50,154 nt of DNA from Oscillospiraceae bacterium. Lineage in GTDB: Bacteria > Bacillota > Clostridia > Oscillospirales > Acutalibacteraceae. A program made the translations under genes and the position numbers. How positions within the stretch are numbered: the stretch's first letter is position 1; each line of letters opens with the position of its first letter. The DNA lies in contig SVPB01000003.1 of NCBI GenBank assembly GCA_015066065.1, forward strand, positions 1-50,154, in the 5' to 3' direction. The notes below the pieces were generated by a model. That model ran no database searches and was not told where the DNA came from. It worked only from the letters and a program-made list of their open reading frames with translations. Below are positions 1 to 11,645 of the stretch, one piece after another.

Positions 1-1765
1 ACCCCTCATTTCAAAATGACAGTCATAAAGCATTTCAAAATGTAAATAGGAACGCTTTGCTCATTTCGAAATGAAAGTCATATATCATTTCAAAACGAAG
101 GGCATAAAAAATTGCTTTCAGAGATTGCGCTGACCCAAACTCGAAATGAAAGTACTCTCGAACGGATGGTCAGCACAATCCTTTTTTGAGGGAATGAAAG
201 TAATTTCAAAATATCATTTCAAAACTATTGTCATAGAGCATATCGAAAAGTAAATCATCAATCATACAAGAGCCATATTTAAGGGAAAGTAATAATAAAA
301 TGTTATCTTTAATTAATCTATAATTACTCTATATGGCTCTTAAAAGGAAAGTTCCGCAGGGCATAATACACCCACTGTCAATGGTGTGCACGAACCTTCA
401 TTTCTTACTGATTCTTTATTGACGCGGGGTATTATGCCCTGCTCATCTCGGCTCTCCGACTGCGTCTCCGAGCCGTTTCTATCTGACTTCGTCCAATAGA
501 AACGGCTCGGCTCCCAAAAAGAGAGTCATAAATCATTTCTAAAGGACAATCATCTATCATCATAGAAATGATAGTCATAGCACCTGCTTTGTAGTTTGTG
601 TGTTATCTTCTTCGGCTTCCTGCAGCTTGTCATTCATAATACGAATGACAACTTGCAGAAAGCCGAAAAGCTTTAATCTTGTCCAAGTTTATACTTGGCG
701 CAGGTGCAACTTTCTCTCGAAGAGACAGTCATAAATCATCCCGAAGCGAAAGTTCTTGTGCGATATTCTGCTGTAAAATAAGGTTAGTACTTGGCTTAAT
801 CTATTTTGCTTTCATCGCAAGATTAATAGATTTTCCGTGCGTGTTCTCTTGAAATCCAAGAGTGTAAATAACCTTGTATTATTTACTGACGCTACGCCGA
901 GTGCAAGGCATTTCAGCCCAGCCGAGACTAAACAACTCGTTCGGCGGGGATTTTCATTTTGTATTTAAACTACGATTAAATCCCGGAAACTTCGTATGCA
1001 ATTCCCATAAGAGACGGAGATTCCCTTAATGGACGGTAGCACCACCGCTTGAGCAGTTTTATTTACCGACGAAACTCTCAAACGTCGTGGATTCCATAAT
1101 TTTCGTCAATAACTTAAGGCTGAATCCAAGCCGTCGTTACGCACTTATTTTCGTTCACAGATTGCCATAAGTGAAAGCAGATCTGTATATTGCACTTTGC
1201 ATCTTCGCCCATTGTGCACAAGTGGTTTTGTCACACTGCACCATCCGGTCTGCCGTGTGCGCAGGTTCGCAGTCGAACATCCTTGTTTCATAACGGCTCT
1301 GCTATCCGCACATTTTAGTTCACATTGCCTTTGTGAAGGGCTTGTATATCACAGCTTTTCCTATTCCTTTGGACCACCGCGTGAAAGTGGGTTCTGATTT
1401 ATTGCGGGAAATCATAAAACCGAGCAACGTAATAGGTCGATTAAAAATGTTTCGCCTATCTTCCATATATCACCCTGTCCGCTGCCGTAACAGTGACAGC
1501 TCTTTAATTCCGTATTTCCAGTTCTTCGGTCCTACGGATAATCAGCCTTAGAGCATCGACTGATGAAGTTATACCTTAACTTCAAAGGGTTCTCTGCTAG
1601 TGATTTACAGCCTGCCGCAGAACTCAGACTGCTGTACTCGGCACCAATGCTTTGGCGCAACTAACTTCCCACGTCACATACAATCATTTTGAACCACCTT
1701 CCTTTATGCGTTTATCTTGTTCCCGTCACTTACCGGAGAACAAGACATAAAAAGAAGGCAAAAAG
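1..1765 (-). ncRNA. Candidate large structured non-coding RNA region (strand inferred from promoter at 1938-1966)
   Basis: No convincing ORF; many perfect inverted repeats, e.g. 268-278/331-341, 356-369/429-442, 470-482/496-508, 580-587/700-707, 610-635/643-670, 1142-1148/1167-1173, 1565-1571/1577-1583; recurring AGTCATAnAnCATTTC linker motif. Confidence 0.45.
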
Positions 1766-1908
1766 ATAACAAAAAAGCACCTACCCCGAAAGGTAAGTGC
1801 TAACTTGCAGTCCTTTTGCCTTTGCCCTATACGCAGGAACCAAGCATAACAAACAAGCGCAACTAATCCTTTGGGAACATTGCAATTTTCGTTATCTTTT
1901 AAAAACAC
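1726..1908 (-). CDS. Possible leader peptide ORF (60 aa, GTG start)
   Basis: ORF starts just after the promoter with an SD-like AGGAG and overlaps the terminator hairpin; coding status uncertain. Confidence 0.3.
   Translation of the reverse strand: MFLKDNENCNVPKGLVALVCYAWFLRIGQRQKDCKLALTFRGRCFFVIFLPSFYVLFSGK
1770..1801 (-). terminator. Intrinsic terminator within leader
   Basis: Minus strand AGCACTTACC-TTTCGG-GGTAGGTGCT followed by TTTTTT. Confidence 0.75.
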
Positions 1909-1937: not shown

Positions 1938-1966
1938 AGTTTAACACCTATATTTAAATATGTCAA
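1938..1966 (-). promoter_or_regulatory. Sigma-A type promoter TTGACA-N17-TAAACT
   Basis: Minus-strand TTGACATATTTAAATATAGGTGTTAAACT; -35 at 1961-1966, -10 at 1938-1943, 17-nt spacing. Confidence 0.75.
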
Positions 1967-2005: not shown

Positions 2006-2227
2006 TTAAAATAGGTCTCTTGGGTCTATTCCAAGAGCCTCGGCAATATAGAATATCATACTAAACGATGGCTCTATTTTGCCCGACATAACGCGGCTGA
2101 TGTACCCGGGATTTTTACCTAAGTCGGTGCTTAGATCCTTGTACGTCTTATTTTTCTTCTCCATTGCAGCATACAGTTTGGAGTAAAAATTGTGTTTAAA
2201 CTCATACAATGTTTTTACTTCTTTCAT
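2006..2227 (-). CDS. XRE-family helix-turn-helix protein
   Basis: 73 aa; MEKKNKTYKDLSTDLGKNPGYISRVMSGKIEPSFSMIFYIAEALG is a Cro/C1-type HTH. Confidence 0.8.
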   Translation of the reverse strand: MKEVKTLYEFKHNFYSKLYAAMEKKNKTYKDLSTDLGKNPGYISRVMSGKIEPSFSMIFYIAEALGIDPRDLF

Positions 2228-2438
2228 ATTTTTAACCTCTTTTAAAAAAATTTAAGAGCCACGAACCCGCGACTCTTTGGTTAAAAATATGATAAATGTT
2301 ATATACGACTTTCAAGAAAACATTAACTGAAGGGTAAAAAACACAAAAAACAGCGAATATTTGCTCATACAACACACTTTTTTGAGCGAATATAGAAAAA
2401 ACACAGCCCTTTTTAAATAAAAGAACTGTGTTTGATTT

Positions 2439-2717
2439 TTATCGGAACAAATCTGAATGACTGCCAACTCTGTATAGCATTAAGACAAGAACATCGTCAA
2501 TAACTTCATATACCAGCAACCAATCAGGTTCTATATGGCATTCTCGGCAACCTTTGTAATTACCGCTTAAATCGTGATCGCGATATTTTTCTTCCAAAGG
2601 TTCGCCATTGGCCAACTTTTCAATTACTGCAAAAAGTTTTTCCGTATCCTTACCTTGCTTTTTGGCGAGTTTTAAATCCTTTTTGAACTGTGTTGTAAAT
2701 CTAACTTCGTACTTCAT
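2439..2717 (-). CDS. Type II toxin, YafQ/RelE family
   Basis: 92 aa; FTTQFKKDLKLAKKQGKD...LSGNYKGCRECHIEPDWLLVYEV...LVLMLYRVGSHSDLF matches the YafQ family; overlaps the antitoxin gene. Confidence 0.9.
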   Translation of the reverse strand: MKYEVRFTTQFKKDLKLAKKQGKDTEKLFAVIEKLANGEPLEEKYRDHDLSGNYKGCRECHIEPDWLLVYEVIDDVLVLMLYRVGSHSDLFR

Positions 2718-2986
2718 ACTTCAAGTGCCGCCCTTAAATCTGCCATATTACCATAACCGGTTGCGGTTTTATCATAGGCAATAGTTCTGCCTTCACGGAT
2801 AGCAGCGGCGGTAGTCTCGTTAGGAACATTTAGTTTTACTTCAAAAGGAATACCATTCTCTCTGATAGCCTGTCTTAAAAAGATATTAACAGCAGTAGTC
2901 ATATTAAGCCCTAAAGCGTCAAAAATCTTTTCAGCCTGTGCTTTAATTTCCTTATCCGTCCGAATATTTAAATTAGTAGACTCCAT
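2714..2986 (-). CDS. Type II antitoxin, RelB/DinJ family
   Basis: Start MESTNLNIRTDKEIKAQAEKIFDALGLNMTTAVNIFLRQAI at 2986 with SD GGAGGTG; ribbon-helix-helix RelB/DinJ. Confidence 0.9.
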   Translation of the reverse strand: MESTNLNIRTDKEIKAQAEKIFDALGLNMTTAVNIFLRQAIRENGIPFEVKLNVPNETTAAAIREGRTIAYDKTATGYGNMADLRAALEV

Positions 2987-3233
2987 ATAATACACCTCCG
3001 TTATTATTCTATGCATATTGTAACACATAATGCACACAATGTCAACACAAAATGTTGGTGTTATAACGAATTATACCAATCTTAAAACTAACTAATATTA
3101 CATTTTATCACTGAATGAAAAAATTGACTAATCATACATTTTCTTAATCTTGCTTACTATCTTGCTTACTATCTTGCTAAAAATCAATAAACATATCAAA
3201 ATATATTGATTTTTCTTTAAGCAGATAAAAACA

Positions 3234-3276: not shown

Positions 3277-4491
3277 TTATTGTTTTTTCTTAATCAAAGC
3301 ATTTCCAAAATATCCACCGACCACACCAATAGCAAGTGCACCAACACCAACTATGAGTAGCCACCACCAAGCAATACCGCCTTCGGTTTTTGGAGTAGCG
3401 TCGGTATCGGGTTGAGTGTCAACCGGTTCGTCTGTAGAGGGTTCATCAGGAAGTTCTTCTACAGAACCGTCATGGGCTGCTGCACGTTTTACGATTACGG
3501 TGTACGTTTTCTTATCGCCATTTTCAGCTGTGCAAATTACCTTAACAGGATTATCTTGACCTGCAGCAAGGTTGTCGCCGCCTTCTACTGCAACAGAAGC
3601 TTTACCATCTACCGCTGAACCACCAATTTTAATACTGGTTGTTTCATAAGGCAACCAAACCACATATTGAGTGGTATCGGTATTAAATGCAGGAGAAAGT
3701 AAGAATCCGTCTACAGAAATGCCCGAAAGTTTATTGTTGTCACTTGCCTTATAATTCGGATCCTGCGCTCTTTTTACAGAAATGGTATAGGTTTTCTTAG
3801 CACCGTTTTCTGCTGTTACAGTAACCGTCACCTTGGTTGTTCCGTTAGCAGTAAGATTAGGGCTATTAACTGAAACCTTTGCCTTAGAATCTGCGGCAGT
3901 AGCACTAACATTAAGCTTAGACACCTCAAACGGAACGTTAGCGGTATAGTTTGTTGTGCCTGCTGAGAATGCAGGAGATATCGTAGCATTACTTACGGTA
4001 AGACTTGCAAGATTGTTATCGGTTGCGAGAGGTGCGGCGACTGTAGTCGAATATGTAACAGTACCAACATTGGCATCTGCACTACCGTCAGAAGCTTTAA
4101 CACCGGTATAAGAGATTTTGATATTTGTGCCTGCCGCAACAGATTTTACCTTAAATGTAGCAGTAAATAAAGTTTTGTTGCCGTTTATAGGATTGCTTAA
4201 ATTGTTATCATATGCAACAAAATTATTACCGTTAAATTCAACCGCCCAAGGGGAACCAATCTTTTGAGTTGTTCCAGACAGGGTGACCTGATTGCTATCA
4301 TAAGACAGTGTGCCTGAGGCGCCGAAAATTCCGCTACCATTCAGATTAAAACTTAATGTTATGGTATCGCCTGCACGAACTGTGCCAGGACCGGTTAAAC
4401 TTGCACTTGCGCTTGCTGCCGAAACAGTGATCGGCAACATTAACGCAAGGGTTAAAACCAAAACTGTTAAAATTGAAATTACTTTTTTCAT
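3277..4491 (-). CDS. Membrane-anchored cohesin-domain protein with two cadherin-like beta-sandwich domains
   Basis: Signal peptide; cohesin-like SLTGPGTVRAGDTITLSFNLNGSGIFGASGTLSYDSNQVTL...ATFKVKS; two repeats LxxLTVSNATISPAFSAGTTNYTANVP / LSGISVDGFLLSPAFNTDTTQYVVWLP; acidic/Thr linker; C-terminal TM and KKK. Confidence 0.85.
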   Translation of the reverse strand: MKKVISILTVLVLTLALMLPITVSAASASASLTGPGTVRAGDTITLSFNLNGSGIFGASGTLSYDSNQVTLSGTTQKIGSPWAVEFNGNNFVAYDNNLSNPINGNKTLFTATFKVKSVAAGTNIKISYTGVKASDGSADANVGTVTYSTTVAAPLATDNNLASLTVSNATISPAFSAGTTNYTANVPFEVSKLNVSATAADSKAKVSVNSPNLTANGTTKVTVTVTAENGAKKTYTISVKRAQDPNYKASDNNKLSGISVDGFLLSPAFNTDTTQYVVWLPYETTSIKIGGSAVDGKASVAVEGGDNLAAGQDNPVKVICTAENGDKKTYTVIVKRAAAHDGSVEELPDEPSTDEPVDTQPDTDATPKTEGGIAWWWLLIVGVGALAIGVVGGYFGNALIKKKQ

Positions 4492-4502
4492 ATTCTTTCT
4501 CC

Positions 4503-7500
4503 TTATCTTGCGGTGATACTGCCTTTACCAAGAATCTTGGCTTTAACCTGAATAAAGTCTGTAATAGAAATTCCACTATCACCATTTGTGTTGGCTGCAG
4601 TAGCATACACACCCGTTAAAGTTGACTTGTTCAGTATATGTGCCTTTATAGCTATCATATCTGTAACTGAAATGGAACCATCTCCGTTGGTATCACCCGT
4701 AACAATAACTGTGTAAGATGTTTTTACAGTATTTCCATCCATAATCTTAACGACCATTCCGGTACCAACCGCAGTGTTGCCACTAACCTCAGAGCTGCCT
4801 TTATAAACCTTGCAGTAAGAACCTTCGTTAAGTCCGGACAACAACGAAGAAACCGTTGTGCCTGCAGTTATCTTGCTAATATTGTTACCACTTATGGTGT
4901 GTTTTGAAGACGTAATTGCGGAAGGAACTTTTGCTTTTACTGAAATTGTGAAGGTGTCAACTTTACCACAATGCTCAACAGTTACAGTTTGTGTTCCGGC
5001 GTTCATACCATACGAGGCTGACCAATTTGATGATATTATTGCTGTTGTGTTATTATCATAATAAGCTGTTATAACCATTCCCGAAAAATCCATATCATCG
5101 TGTTCAACATAGGATAATTTTGTGGGCTTTGAAGTAACTTTTATTGATAAAAGATTTTTGCTGTAGGTTGCTTCACAGGTATCACATTCATAATAAATGT
5201 TTCCATTTTTGTCAGTCTTGCCTTTGTCCCAAATATGTATGCCAGTCGCTTCAATGATGTTTTGTTTTACTAGTACCTCTTCGCAAACAGAACAATGCTT
5301 TCCATCAGTTAGGCCTGTTTTGGTACAAGTCGGCTCAACACGATTATCTAAAACCTCTGTGTGACCTAGTGCATCTGGGAAACGCTCTTCTTGATAATCA
5401 CAAAACTTACATTTGTAAATTTCATGTCCTGTTTCAGTACAATTAGGCTTTTTTACGGTTTCTAACAATTCCAGTTGATGTTTGCCTTCTTCAATAAGCA
5501 GTAATGATTTAGAAAGCACATTTCCTGTTTTATCTATTGCGCGCAAAATCACATAACCGGGTTTTAACGGAGAAATGGTAGCTGCAGAAGTCTTTTTAAT
5601 CGAGGAACCCCAAGTAATAGTACTAGAGGAAACATTAGTTATTTTGGCAGTTGTTTCATCGGATATGATAAAATCAAAGTCCTTGTTCGCTTCATACTCT
5701 AATGTGATAGTTTCATCAGTTGTTAGTTTGTAATCATATACCAAACTTAGATTCGTAACATCAAAAGTTAGGCTTCCTCCATTATAAGTAACCGTAATAG
5801 TTTGTTCTCCAGCTTTAGTCTTATCGTATCCCGACACCATGGAAGGAATCACATCTATTTCTTCAACAGTTCCGTCGTTATAAATTTCAGCAATTTTAGC
5901 ACCTGATATATCAAAATCTTCTAACCCAACATAATACTCCGTTTTATATGGTAAGGATACTATACTTATACCTTGTACCTTTTGGATAAAGTTTATGCTG
6001 TTTGTAATTAACTCAGGATATGTATAATCTGATCCTGTTGGCATTCTCCAAACATTTTCAAAATCAAAACCGCTAAATGTAGTTTGTGATTGCAAGTGTT
6101 CAGATGTACATTTAATCGCACCTTCATCGCCGTATTCCTCGCCAGAACTAACGTTATTTAAATAATAACAATTTATAAATTTTGCATCCGGATTGCTTAG
6201 ATCAACAAGTAGTCCCGAAATTGCACCGCCTGCTCGTTCGGATGTAATATAGCCAACATTGTAACACGACTGAATTATATTATGATTTGTTCCGGCTATT
6301 CCACCGGCATACGAATATGAGTCATCACCATTTATCGCTCGAATATATCCTGTGTTAAAACAATCTTGTATTAATCCTGAGTTTGTACCGGCTATTCCAC
6401 CGGCATCATCTGTCGAATATATATATCCTGTGTTATAACAATTTTTAACAGTTCCACTATACACTACACCAACAATGCCGCCCAATGTGGTTGAACCGGT
6501 TTCATCTTCAATTTTTATATCGCAAGTATTAAAACAATTCTCAATAATTCCATTATCATTACGCCCAGACACACCGCCCGCACTTCCATACTTAATCGAA
6601 ATGTGTCCGTCTTCTATGCCTAAATTTTTAATGGTTCCACTATTGGTGTTAAATAAACCTGCGAAAACTGTCTGTTCGGATTGAATGTTTATAATAATGT
6701 TTTTTACACTATATCCATTTCCATCAAATACACCTGTGAAAGATTTATTCGTGGTTCCTGAACCGATCGGCTTCCAACCAGTTCCATTGTTATAAAATTT
6801 ACCATTTACTTCAAAATCAGACTCTAAGAATTCTATGTTTTTTACTAATTTAAAATGAGAAGATAAATAATTTCTTGTGTTATTCAAATGAGATGCACAA
6901 GCAATATAATAAGGAGATGCTTCCGTTCCATTTCCACCATTAAATGTTGCGTTTTCATTTACAATAAAACAGTCGACACCCTTTATTGTGGGATATTTGT
7001 AGTAATTACCCTCTGCAAATTCCCAAATAGATTCAAAATCAAAATTTATGTATGTGGATTGGTTCTTCAAATTTGAAAGGGAACGTTCTGATGTCCCAGT
7101 AATAGTTTTTCCACCTTCAATAGCAGGATAAAAGCAATCTTTTGCTGTAACTCCACTAGCATATGCAATAATTCCGCCTTTTTCAGCAGAACTAATTGTG
7201 CCCACGTTATAACAATTACTGATTTTAAGTCCGTTAGAGTATCCGACTATACCACCAACTCTACCATAAGTTCCATCTGCCGATAATTCTCCTGCATTAA
7301 AACAGTCTTTAATAACATCTTTAGAATTGGTGAGCGCAACGATACCGCCAACTTCGCTATCATAAGAAGCGTAGGAATTTCCAGGAAGTTGTTCAGAAAA
7401 CGATATGCCATTTAGTTTGCCAAAATTAGCGCAGCTAGTTATTTCGGTTTCAACTATATCTCCTGCTATTCCACCAATATTGTGAGTTCCAGTAAGTTCC

Positions 7501-8240
7501 CCATAATTAACAGATTCGCTTATGCTACCTTCTTGAACTGCACCACATATTCCACCGACTCGGTCAAAGGCGCCATCACATGTAATTTTTACATCACTTT
7601 GGCAGTCGATTATATCTGCCCAAGCTGTTCTTCCACAAATACCTCCAACATATACACTTTCATAATTGGGTGCTGTATCAATTACAATAGTTCCATTTGT
7701 TTTACAATTCTTTATGGCTGTGCTTGAAGCGGAACCGGAAACGCATCCCACATCAGCCCGTTTTGATAATTTAAGCGAAATATTGACAGAGCGCATTTCT
7801 AGATCTCTTACTTCGCCAGATACATCACCAAAGAGACCTATATATCCCAAATTAGAAGAATCACCATATATCGTAAGACCTTCTATGTAGTGACCGTTTC
7901 CATCAAAGGTTCCTGTAAAAGACCAAAAATAAGAACCGCTCGTCGTAATTATGGCTTCCCAACCATTTCCATTATTATAAAAATCTCCCCCTACGGCAAA
8001 ATCCGTAGCAGAAAATTCAATATCATCAATCAATTTATAATGTGCATCAAGTTCATTACGAACATTATTTAAGTGTTCCTTTGTTTCGATCAAGTAAGGA
8101 TCAGCTTGTGTACCACTACCACCAGCAAATTGTGTTGTTACTGCATTTGCCGTTATTGCCCCCAATGGCAAAGTAGTAATAATCATAGCAACGGAAAGCA
8201 ACACCGCAAATAGTTGTTTCCCTTTCTTTTTAATCTTCAT
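4503..8240 (-). CDS. Secreted multidomain GLUG-repeat protein with Ig-like domains and C-terminal type I dockerin
   Basis: Start MKIKKKGKQLFAVLLSVAMIITTLPLGAITANA at 8240 with SD GGAGGAGG; repeated GGIVGYSNGLKISNCYNVG-type GLUG motifs; C-term GDTNGDGSISVTDMIAIKAHIL...NTNGDSGISITDFIQVKAKIL dockerin repeats. Confidence 0.85.
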   Translation of the reverse strand: MKIKKKGKQLFAVLLSVAMIITTLPLGAITANAVTTQFAGGSGTQADPYLIETKEHLNNVRNELDAHYKLIDDIEFSATDFAVGGDFYNNGNGWEAIITTSGSYFWSFTGTFDGNGHYIEGLTIYGDSSNLGYIGLFGDVSGEVRDLEMRSVNISLKLSKRADVGCVSGSASSTAIKNCKTNGTIVIDTAPNYESVYVGGICGRTAWADIIDCQSDVKITCDGAFDRVGGICGAVQEGSISESVNYGELTGTHNIGGIAGDIVETEITSCANFGKLNGISFSEQLPGNSYASYDSEVGGIVALTNSKDVIKDCFNAGELSADGTYGRVGGIVGYSNGLKISNCYNVGTISSAEKGGIIAYASGVTAKDCFYPAIEGGKTITGTSERSLSNLKNQSTYINFDFESIWEFAEGNYYKYPTIKGVDCFIVNENATFNGGNGTEASPYYIACASHLNNTRNYLSSHFKLVKNIEFLESDFEVNGKFYNNGTGWKPIGSGTTNKSFTGVFDGNGYSVKNIIINIQSEQTVFAGLFNTNSGTIKNLGIEDGHISIKYGSAGGVSGRNDNGIIENCFNTCDIKIEDETGSTTLGGIVGVVYSGTVKNCYNTGYIYSTDDAGGIAGTNSGLIQDCFNTGYIRAINGDDSYSYAGGIAGTNHNIIQSCYNVGYITSERAGGAISGLLVDLSNPDAKFINCYYLNNVSSGEEYGDEGAIKCTSEHLQSQTTFSGFDFENVWRMPTGSDYTYPELITNSINFIQKVQGISIVSLPYKTEYYVGLEDFDISGAKIAEIYNDGTVEEIDVIPSMVSGYDKTKAGEQTITVTYNGGSLTFDVTNLSLVYDYKLTTDETITLEYEANKDFDFIISDETTAKITNVSSSTITWGSSIKKTSAATISPLKPGYVILRAIDKTGNVLSKSLLLIEEGKHQLELLETVKKPNCTETGHEIYKCKFCDYQEERFPDALGHTEVLDNRVEPTCTKTGLTDGKHCSVCEEVLVKQNIIEATGIHIWDKGKTDKNGNIYYECDTCEATYSKNLLSIKVTSKPTKLSYVEHDDMDFSGMVITAYYDNNTTAIISSNWSASYGMNAGTQTVTVEHCGKVDTFTISVKAKVPSAITSSKHTISGNNISKITAGTTVSSLLSGLNEGSYCKVYKGSSEVSGNTAVGTGMVVKIMDGNTVKTSYTVIVTGDTNGDGSISVTDMIAIKAHILNKSTLTGVYATAANTNGDSGISITDFIQVKAKILGKGSITAR

Positions 8241-8271
8241 AATGATGAGCCTCCTCCAAGGATTTCTAGTA

Positions 8272-8482
8272 TTAAAAAAGTGCGCCAACCGAAGCCGACG
8301 CACCGAAAAACGCAAACCCCGATTGTCGCCAAACAAATTTCAAGTATGAGAGGTTTCCCTACACAATAACCTGATGGAATTTGCGTTTTTACCAAATTCA
8401 CATGATTATTGTGCGCAAAAAGGGTATACTTACCCCTTTGCAAGGAAATCAACCATCATACTTTTATAAAATTTGTTTGGCA
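8272..8482 (-). promoter_or_regulatory. Riboswitch-like 5' leader upstream of the dockerin gene
   Basis: Closing stem 8456-8463/8342-8349, stem 8406-8413/8362-8369 with inner 8393-8399/8377-8383, a GC-rich hairpin, and an alternative 11-bp pairing 8380-8390/8306-8316 ahead of a terminator. Confidence 0.6.
8274..8303 (-). terminator. Intrinsic terminator with UUCG tetraloop in the leader
   Basis: Minus strand GTGCGTCGGC-TTCG-GTTGGCGCAC-TTTTTT. Confidence 0.85.
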
Positions 8483-9896: not shown

Positions 9897-11645
9897 ATGG
9901 ATGTACATTCTGTCCGTCAGATGATGAGGACTAAAAGTATATACGAAATACCTATGCGCGTTACATTCTACGCCCGTGTATCTTCCGAAAAGGACGAGCA
10001 GTTAAACTCTCTTGACAACCAGATATCCTATTATCGTAACTTTATAAAGAAAAACGCTAACTGGGAGTTTGTTGAGGGATATATAGACGAAGGTCTTTCG
10101 GGTATGAGCACCAAAAAGCGCGAGAATTTTCACAATATGATTAGTGATGCAAAGGCAGGACTATTTGACCTTGTTATCACAAAGGAAATTACTCGTTTTG
10201 CCCGTAATACTCTTGACAGTATTCAATACACTCGTGACCTACTTTCCTACGGTGTAGGTGTATTCTTTCAGAACGATAACATCAATACTCTTGATGAAGA
10301 TAGTGAGCTTCGACTTACTATTATGTCAGGTATTGCTCAGGACGAATTACGCAAGTTGTCTTCCCGTATCAAATTTGGTCATCAAGAGGCCATAAAGAAA
10401 AATGTTGTCCTTGGTAACAGCCGTATTTTCGGCTACCGTAAGGACAACAAAAGGTTAGTTATTGACGAAAAAGAAGCAGAAATGGTTCGCGAATTATTTG
10501 AACTTTACGCAACAGACCAATACAGTATGAAGCAGATTGAGGAAATCTTTTGGAACAAGGGTTACCGCAACAACAATGGTAAACGTATTTGCCACAGTAC
10601 AATGTCTAATACCATTTCAAACCCAAAGTACAAGGGCTATTATGTAGGCAACAAGGTAAAGATAATTGATATGTTTACCAAAAAGCAAAAGTTTTTACCG
10701 CCTGAGGAATGGGTTATGTTTAAGGACGAAACCGGCGAAATTGTCCCTGCCATTGTCAGCGAAGACCTTTGGGAAAAAGCCAACGCTGTTCTTAGAAGGC
10801 GTAGCCATGATGTAAAGAACAGACAGAATCTTTGCAACCACCCGAATCTGCTAACTGGTAAAATGTATTGCACCCATTGTGGAAAGCTCTACTACCGCAA
10901 GGATAGCAAAGACCGCAAAGGCAATGTGTTGTCACGTTGGATATGTAGTGGCAAAATCAACAACGGCACTGATTCTTGTCCCTCGTTCACTATTTACGAA
11001 GAAGAAATCAAAGAAGTTCTTACTGAGGTTTTTAAAGACACTGCCGAGGATGCAAGATTGATTATTGAGGAATATTCAAATATGTATGCAGAAGTTTTAG
11101 CAAAAGACACTTCATCTGGGGAACTGCAAAAGCTCAAAGACCGACTTGATTTTTTATCAAAGAAAAAATCAAAGTTGCTTGAGTATAATATTGCGGGTCA
11201 AATCAACGACCGAGATTTTGTTGAGATGAACAAACAAATTTCGGACGAGTCTGCTGAGGTTTACTCTACTATTCAGGAAATTGAATATGAAATCAATTCA
11301 CGAACTGAATATAAGCAAAGAATAGAAGAGATACGAAATATTTTGCTTAAAGCCGAAAATGAAGCGAGCCAGAATATGATTGACTCGGCATTCATAAACA
11401 GGTATATTGATAAAATTTACGTTACACCTATTGAAGAAGGCACTGTCGAAATTTCGGTAAAGATATTCTCCGGACAGACGGTTGAGAAACATTTGTCCAA
11501 CCTACGAAAACGCCATAAATCTATTAAAAATGCCGAAAAAACCGATGAAAACGAGTCCTCTGATGACGGTATTGTAGATATTGGCAGTACGGGACACACT
11601 TTTAAGAAGATGATCAAGGCTTACGAGGAGAACAACCTGAAGTAA
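9897..11645 (+). CDS. Large serine recombinase / site-specific integrase
   Basis: Resolvase N-term RVTFYARVSSEKDEQLNSLDNQ, SGIAQDELRKLSSRIKFGHQ, recombinase domain, zinc ribbon CTHCGKLYYRK...WICSG, coiled coil. Confidence 0.95.
   Translation: MDVHSVRQMMRTKSIYEIPMRVTFYARVSSEKDEQLNSLDNQISYYRNFIKKNANWEFVEGYIDEGLSGMSTKKRENFHNMISDAKAGLFDLVITKEITRFARNTLDSIQYTRDLLSYGVGVFFQNDNINTLDEDSELRLTIMSGIAQDELRKLSSRIKFGHQEAIKKNVVLGNSRIFGYRKDNKRLVIDEKEAEMVRELFELYATDQYSMKQIEEIFWNKGYRNNNGKRICHSTMSNTISNPKYKGYYVGNKVKIIDMFTKKQKFLPPEEWVMFKDETGEIVPAIVSEDLWEKANAVLRRRSHDVKNRQNLCNHPNLLTGKMYCTHCGKLYYRKDSKDRKGNVLSRWICSGKINNGTDSCPSFTIYEEEIKEVLTEVFKDTAEDARLIIEEYSNMYAEVLAKDTSSGELQKLKDRLDFLSKKKSKLLEYNIAGQINDRDFVEMNKQISDESAEVYSTIQEIEYEINSRTEYKQRIEEIRNILLKAENEASQNMIDSAFINRYIDKIYVTPIEEGTVEISVKIFSGQTVEKHLSNLRKRHKSIKNAEKTDENESSDDGIVDIGSTGHTFKKMIKAYEENNLK

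Follow-up and report, generated by a model that had tools for sequence, protein, structure and literature searches.

What does the left end of this locus encode, given that about 1.7 kb there lacks a credible reading frame and is crowded with inverted repeats? The window analyzed here is a stretch of 50,154 nucleotides from an Oscillospiraceae bacterium (GCA_015066065.1, contig SVPB01000003.1). The first-pass annotation had proposed that positions 1-1765 may be a large structured RNA on the minus strand, of no recognized class, with a sigma-A promoter pointing into it. This reading was supported by the analyses below, in which the region emerged as most of a gene for a structured noncoding RNA of about 1.9 kb.

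Hairpins, promoter and coding potential

All six inverted repeats listed in the first-pass annotation were exact reverse complements. Hairpin density on the minus strand was above chance; positions 1-765 folded to -283 kcal/mol against a shuffled mean of -182 (z = -12.9), and the z scores for 1692-1905 and 766-1691 were respectively -7.0 and -3.5, with no shuffle as good in any of the three. The promoter was confirmed as TTGACA and TAAACT separated by 17 nt, with an extended -10 (TG). However, the conserved RNA did not stop at 1765 but included a well-folded leader up to about 1905-1930, and the left limit was an assembly edge, because the window is contig C46 of its assembly from base 1; the RNA is cut there. 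Direct repeats of about 24 nt, not noted in the first pass, lay between the hairpins. The longest stop-free run (94 codons) equaled the shuffled mean, and indels against homologues were rarely multiples of three (e.g., 0 of 17 and 3 of 23), excluding a decayed protein gene.

Anatomy and conservation of the RNA

The own genome held no second copy of the RNA. A first look at 148 relatives gave G003, G057 and small pieces (G numbers denote genomes and L numbers loci). When 398 genomes of the family were searched, long matches were obtained in G248, G283, G347, G312 (two contigs), G216, G205 and G160, along with shorter ones. A gapped pattern from the core retrieved 11 named records, nearly all of them MAGs of Clostridia, several from goat, sheep, roe deer and water deer gut. 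Homologues over the full length were present in other genera and families and were 73-89% identical to the window over the aligned part; full-length copies were about 80-89% identical, including copies in other families, which together with their patchy distribution implies horizontal transfer, although this is an inference. A class-level model search found no copy beyond the order (0 of 390 genomes apart from the window's own, with stricter filters). The features in the window, from 5' to 3' on the RNA strand and with the repeat units last, were as follows.

1938-1966, minus strand: promoter of the RNA
1692-1905, minus strand: leader domain, with a long closing stem (about 1886-1901 with 1757-1771), two inner hairpins, then a second stem
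1770-1801, minus strand: terminator-like hairpin in the leader, GCACTTACCTTTCGGGGTAGGTGC followed by T6, a possible attenuator
1264-1691, minus strand: core domain, a highly conserved multi-branched fold (GGGAAGTTAGTTG... to ...TTCGACTGCGAACC)
1165-1263, minus strand: optional module, present in the window, L089, L091 and G312 contig 11, absent from G248, G283, G347, L083, L090 and others
1147-1160, plus strand: att-like motif ATTTTCGTTCACAG inside the RNA gene (reverse complement on the RNA strand), of the same motif family as the att-like site in front of the integrase in L090, L091, L063 and L064
1099-1108, plus strand: att-like motif ATTTTCGTCA inside the RNA gene, in inverted orientation to the preceding one and part of the inverted pair ATTTTCGTCA...TGACGAAAAT in front of the integrase in homologues
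765-1110, minus strand: middle domain (GTTTCCGGGATTTAATCG ... GTACTAACCTTATTTTACA), recognizable in the divergent G251 and G633
580-708, minus strand: large hairpin of the 3' array (GCACCTGC ... GCAGGTGC, inner arms 611-638/640-667)
468-510, minus strand: hairpin F (CCGAGCCGTTTCTAT ... ATAGAAACGGCTCGG)
356-442, minus strand: hairpin M (GCAGGGCATAATACCC ... GGGTGTATTATGCCCTGC) with an inner GTCAA/TTGAC helix
268-341, minus strand: hairpin AAGAGCCATAT ... ATATGGCTCTT, whose loop varied in length and sequence among homologues
123-180, minus strand: hairpin GGATTGTGCTGACC ... GGTCAGCGCAATC
719-742, minus strand: 24-nt repeat unit, GGGATGATTTATGACTGTCTCTTC
516-539, minus strand: 24-nt repeat unit, GAAATGATTTATGACTCTCTTTTT
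68-91, minus strand: 24-nt repeat unit, GAAATGATATATGACTTTCATTTC
13-36, minus strand: 24-nt repeat unit, GAAATGCTTTATGACTGTCATTTT, the last before the contig edge, where homologues go on to the att-like site and the integrase

In most homologues, a TTGACA box with 17-nt spacing lay just upstream of the conserved 5' end, and four of these were perfect 12/12 promoters although the surrounding sequence differed; the promoter was conserved in position, not in sequence. A promoter resemblance in other genomes was not taken as evidence of homology, because in two of them it preceded what reads as rpoB. The terminator-like hairpin was also found in L090 and L091. A second leader type (G248, G347, G312a, G160, L083 and L085) differed in sequence but kept this hairpin, with G-C replaced by A-T at its base. 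The 24-nt units occurred 54 times in 20 homologous sequences against a mean of 0.06 in shuffles. However, they were conserved in sequence more than in pairing; a strictly conserved mini-hairpin was not confirmed, with pairing holding in 13-21 of 21 units depending on position.

MAFFT alone misaligned hairpin F in divergent sequences, and a covariance model built only from five close, near-identical sequences of the F and M region was used instead. This model recovered divergent copies in other genera and families (G583, G633, G160 and G318) at E = 4e-10 to 4e-7, although the E-values of such a home-made model are rough. In the resulting alignment 16 of 40 pairs had changed on both sides, ten of them in the two helices of hairpin M, and 91% of cells were paired against 37-44% in slid controls; none of 500 shuffles did as well, showing that the two hairpins were kept by compensatory change. 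The alignment was fitted to the structure and so leans towards it, and these tests do not correct for phylogeny. Nevertheless, hairpin F read by hand, with no model involved, gave 109 of 120 cells paired across 8 divergent lineages, with up to 4 pair types at one position; an automatic alignment of hairpin M was shifted in several rows and was not used. In the core, compensatory changes were visible by eye (e.g., GAAGTTA/TAACTTC, GAAGTC/GACTTC, AGGTTA/TAACCT), and 17 such pairs were counted in an earlier alignment that included G160. However, the whole-core fold (124 pairs) was only moderately better than shuffled columns and 160-nt windows inside the core were weak, so that only part of the core is well supported and its long-range pairing is uncertain.

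Consensus folds were better in the RNA sense than in the antisense for the leader (6 homologues; z = -12.2 and -10.2, respectively), the core (11 homologues; -4.8 and -3.8) and the middle domain (11 sequences; -6.5 and -3.4). Sense folds were also better in most windows along the RNA, with a summed energy of -1298 against -1144 kcal/mol and a mean z of -4.2 against -3.6. In strictly Watson-Crick stems of 10 or more pairs, 40 columns showed G-T and 18 showed A-C. This asymmetry favors the minus strand and is expected for an RNA of this strand, not for a function of double-stranded DNA.

Two explanations without a functional RNA were weighed against these data. In the first, the hairpins and repeats act as DNA, as recombination or binding sites of an integron-like platform in which the recombinase moves cassettes at ATTTTCGTACACAG-type sites and the fold matters as a cruciform or single-stranded DNA. 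Consistent with it, att-like motifs lay before the recombinase, inside the RNA gene and, in L090 and G312 contig 11, just before the RNA; a regulator gene (L083) and a Doc/Phd pair (G160) lay at the att-like site; and in G003 the homology started abruptly inside a surface-protein gene, near the internal motif. However, the strand asymmetry, the conserved promoter position and the long conserved segments that are not hairpins speak against it, and no array of cassettes with a repeated site was seen; single genes lay at the att-like site in L083 and G160. We consider it unlikely. In the second, nested palindromic (MITE-like) insertion sequences accumulated next to an integrase with no function. 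Modules were indeed gained and lost between copies, the 24-nt units are direct repeats, and the region breaks assemblies, as repeated DNA does. By contrast, the own genome held no further copies, the order of domains was conserved across families, loops and single-stranded segments were conserved, and no terminal inverted repeats or target duplications were seen at the modules. The compensatory changes across families also speak strongly against it, making this explanation very improbable.

Comparison with known large RNAs

None of 4227 Rfam models, including group I and group II introns and riboswitches, matched either strand at gathering scores, and only chance matches appeared up to E = 5; the best match on 1-2100 was a eukaryotic snoRNA model far below its gathering score. 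Ten homologous loci gave no match inside the RNA. Phage and plasmid records gave no match at distant-blastn sensitivity, and viral contigs gave none with four RNA patterns or with the recombinase alignment. No description of the RNA was found in the open-access literature searched, which did not include bioRxiv. GOLLD, ROOL and OLE are the recognized large ornate RNAs (PMC12286853); only a handful of bacterial RNAs are this large and ornate, and most have no known function. The analogy with GOLLD and ROOL drawn in the first-pass annotation fits in kind, as a large ornate RNA on a mobile element, but the RNA belongs to neither family. GOLLD, with a conserved 3' part and a more variable 5' part, is 800 nt or a little more and occurs in phages and prophages, often near tRNA islands (PMC12286853). 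The RNA described here is about twice as long, is tied to a tyrosine recombinase and an att-like site, and was not found in the phage or viral collections. ROOL, from gut and rumen bacteria, is about 660 nt and phage-borne (PMC12286853). OLE, a large ornate RNA of Clostridia and relatives, gave no match. The most abundant transcripts of a phage satellite (the PLE IIR transcript, defined by flanking inverted repeats) and of a phage (ICP1), in different hosts, are also large and noncoding (PMC7567579). CsrB/RsmZ-type protein-sponge RNAs and ToxI repeat RNAs likewise carry a repeated short motif within one RNA, but the motif differs and the present RNA is far larger. A gut survey reported 3161 motifs of 27-219 bp, some near integrases (PMC8040213). 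The present RNA suggests that surveys limited to motifs of about 200 nt and to human-gut data miss very long structured RNAs, here helped by the breaking of assemblies in this region.

The neighboring recombinase and possible functions

In homologues, the RNA ended about 150-200 bp before a tyrosine recombinase gene; the array ended at the att-like site ATTTTCGTACACA..ATTATTTTCGTCA..TGACGAAAAT..ATTTTCGTACACAG, and the recombinase start codon followed. When the pair ATTTTCGTCA...TGACGAAAAT was searched as an element marker, it was found in 3 of 146 genomes, one of them (G084) unrelated in context. The recombinase had 310-342 aa, a SAM-like N domain and weak similarity to XerC/XerD. It resembles integron and Xer-like platforms in lying next to a site with direct and inverted motifs at which genes are found inserted, but scored at most 41 bits against the integron integrase cut-off of 265. 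Of the 398 family genomes, about 13 had a strong RNA match, 14 had the recombinase and 8 had both (Fisher P = 2.5e-10). Genomes with the RNA but no recombinase were mostly cut by contig ends, and the window's own genome is one of them. Further out lay a second, Tn916-type or large serine recombinase and, in three loci, a tRNA beyond the outer integrase, as a likely insertion site rather than a tRNA array, indicating that the pair probably sits near the integrase end of a larger integrative element.

Taken together, we are highly confident that this is a real, new and conserved gene for a large structured RNA linked to an integrase, although all homologues are metagenome-assembled, many contigs break inside the region, and transcription and both RNA ends are inferred without expression data. 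The constant neighbor gives a concrete handle on function that GOLLD and ROOL lack. As a whole, a new class in this genetic setting, with action in trans as the leading function, is held with reasonable confidence. Trans action was inferred because the RNA persisted where genes on the opposite strand separated it from the recombinase (L083, G160) or where a different, Tn916-type integrase followed (G583). The RNA would be made from its own promoter, get past the leader hairpin and work as an element-encoded structural RNA; the repeats with the near-invariant TATGACT motif would be binding sites for a protein, giving a scaffold or sponge that controls the recombinase or another step in the life of the element. 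This specific role remains tentative; no protein partner is known. Alternatively, the region could be a 1.9-kb structured 5' leader of the recombinase mRNA, in which the terminator-like hairpin and downstream folds decide whether the recombinase is made. The same orientation and adjacency in L063, L064, L090, L091, L069 and others, the early position of that hairpin and the lack of a strong terminator between the RNA and the recombinase gene are consistent with this cis-acting reading, which remains open. However, the intervening opposite-strand genes in L083 and G160, the different integrase types following the RNA in G583 and G262, and the unusually large size of such a conserved leader make it less likely. 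It is also conceivable, but improbable, that the RNA binds the recombinase (e.g., through the 24-nt motifs) and is needed for, or directs, capture and exchange of genes at the att-like site, as an RNA-assisted, integron-like platform.

A helix-turn-helix regulator gene (L083 2930-3994, minus strand) and a Doc/Phd-like pair (L068 1517-2190, minus strand) sat between the 3' end of the RNA and the recombinase, as if captured at the att-like site. The recombinase gene had an early in-frame stop in L083 (4233-4325) and two internal stops in G633 (L132; G633:C4:177503-178429) while the RNA stayed recognizable, showing that the RNA can outlast the enzyme. The record title of L083 (CASDQF010000055.1) says Alphaproteobacteria, but the contig carries the Clostridia-type RNA and recombinase and is probably mis-binned.

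Cargo on the other side of the RNA varied. It included an AbiL-type pair in G205, a methyltransferase plus a candidate defense protein in G628, type I restriction genes in G013 (which showed only the repeat array, not the RNA core) and AraC regulators in G347 and G312. PADLOC listed AbiL-like, methyltransferase plus PDC-S46, and type I restriction genes in related loci (L069 5548-7494; L127 4060-8182; L031 7118-14469). In the window, an XRE regulator and a YafQ/RelB toxin-antitoxin pair (2006-3037, minus strand) lay directly upstream of the RNA promoter and are likely element cargo or a stabilizer. Large secreted proteins with cohesin, Big_3, cadherin-like and dockerin domains followed (3277-8336, minus strand), and similar cohesin-like and repeat proteins lay next to the RNA in G248 and G003 (L063 3599-8999; L027 2229-3761). 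Contigs of many genomes ended inside the RNA (window position 1; G347 C14:1; G312 C8 end; G057 C10:1 and C7:1; G009 C21:1), indicating that it is probably multi-copy or strain-variable in the communities and under-represented in assemblies. A large serine recombinase with resolvase, recombinase and zinc-ribbon domains (9897-11645, plus strand) was located about 8 kb from the RNA and may belong to the same or a neighboring element.
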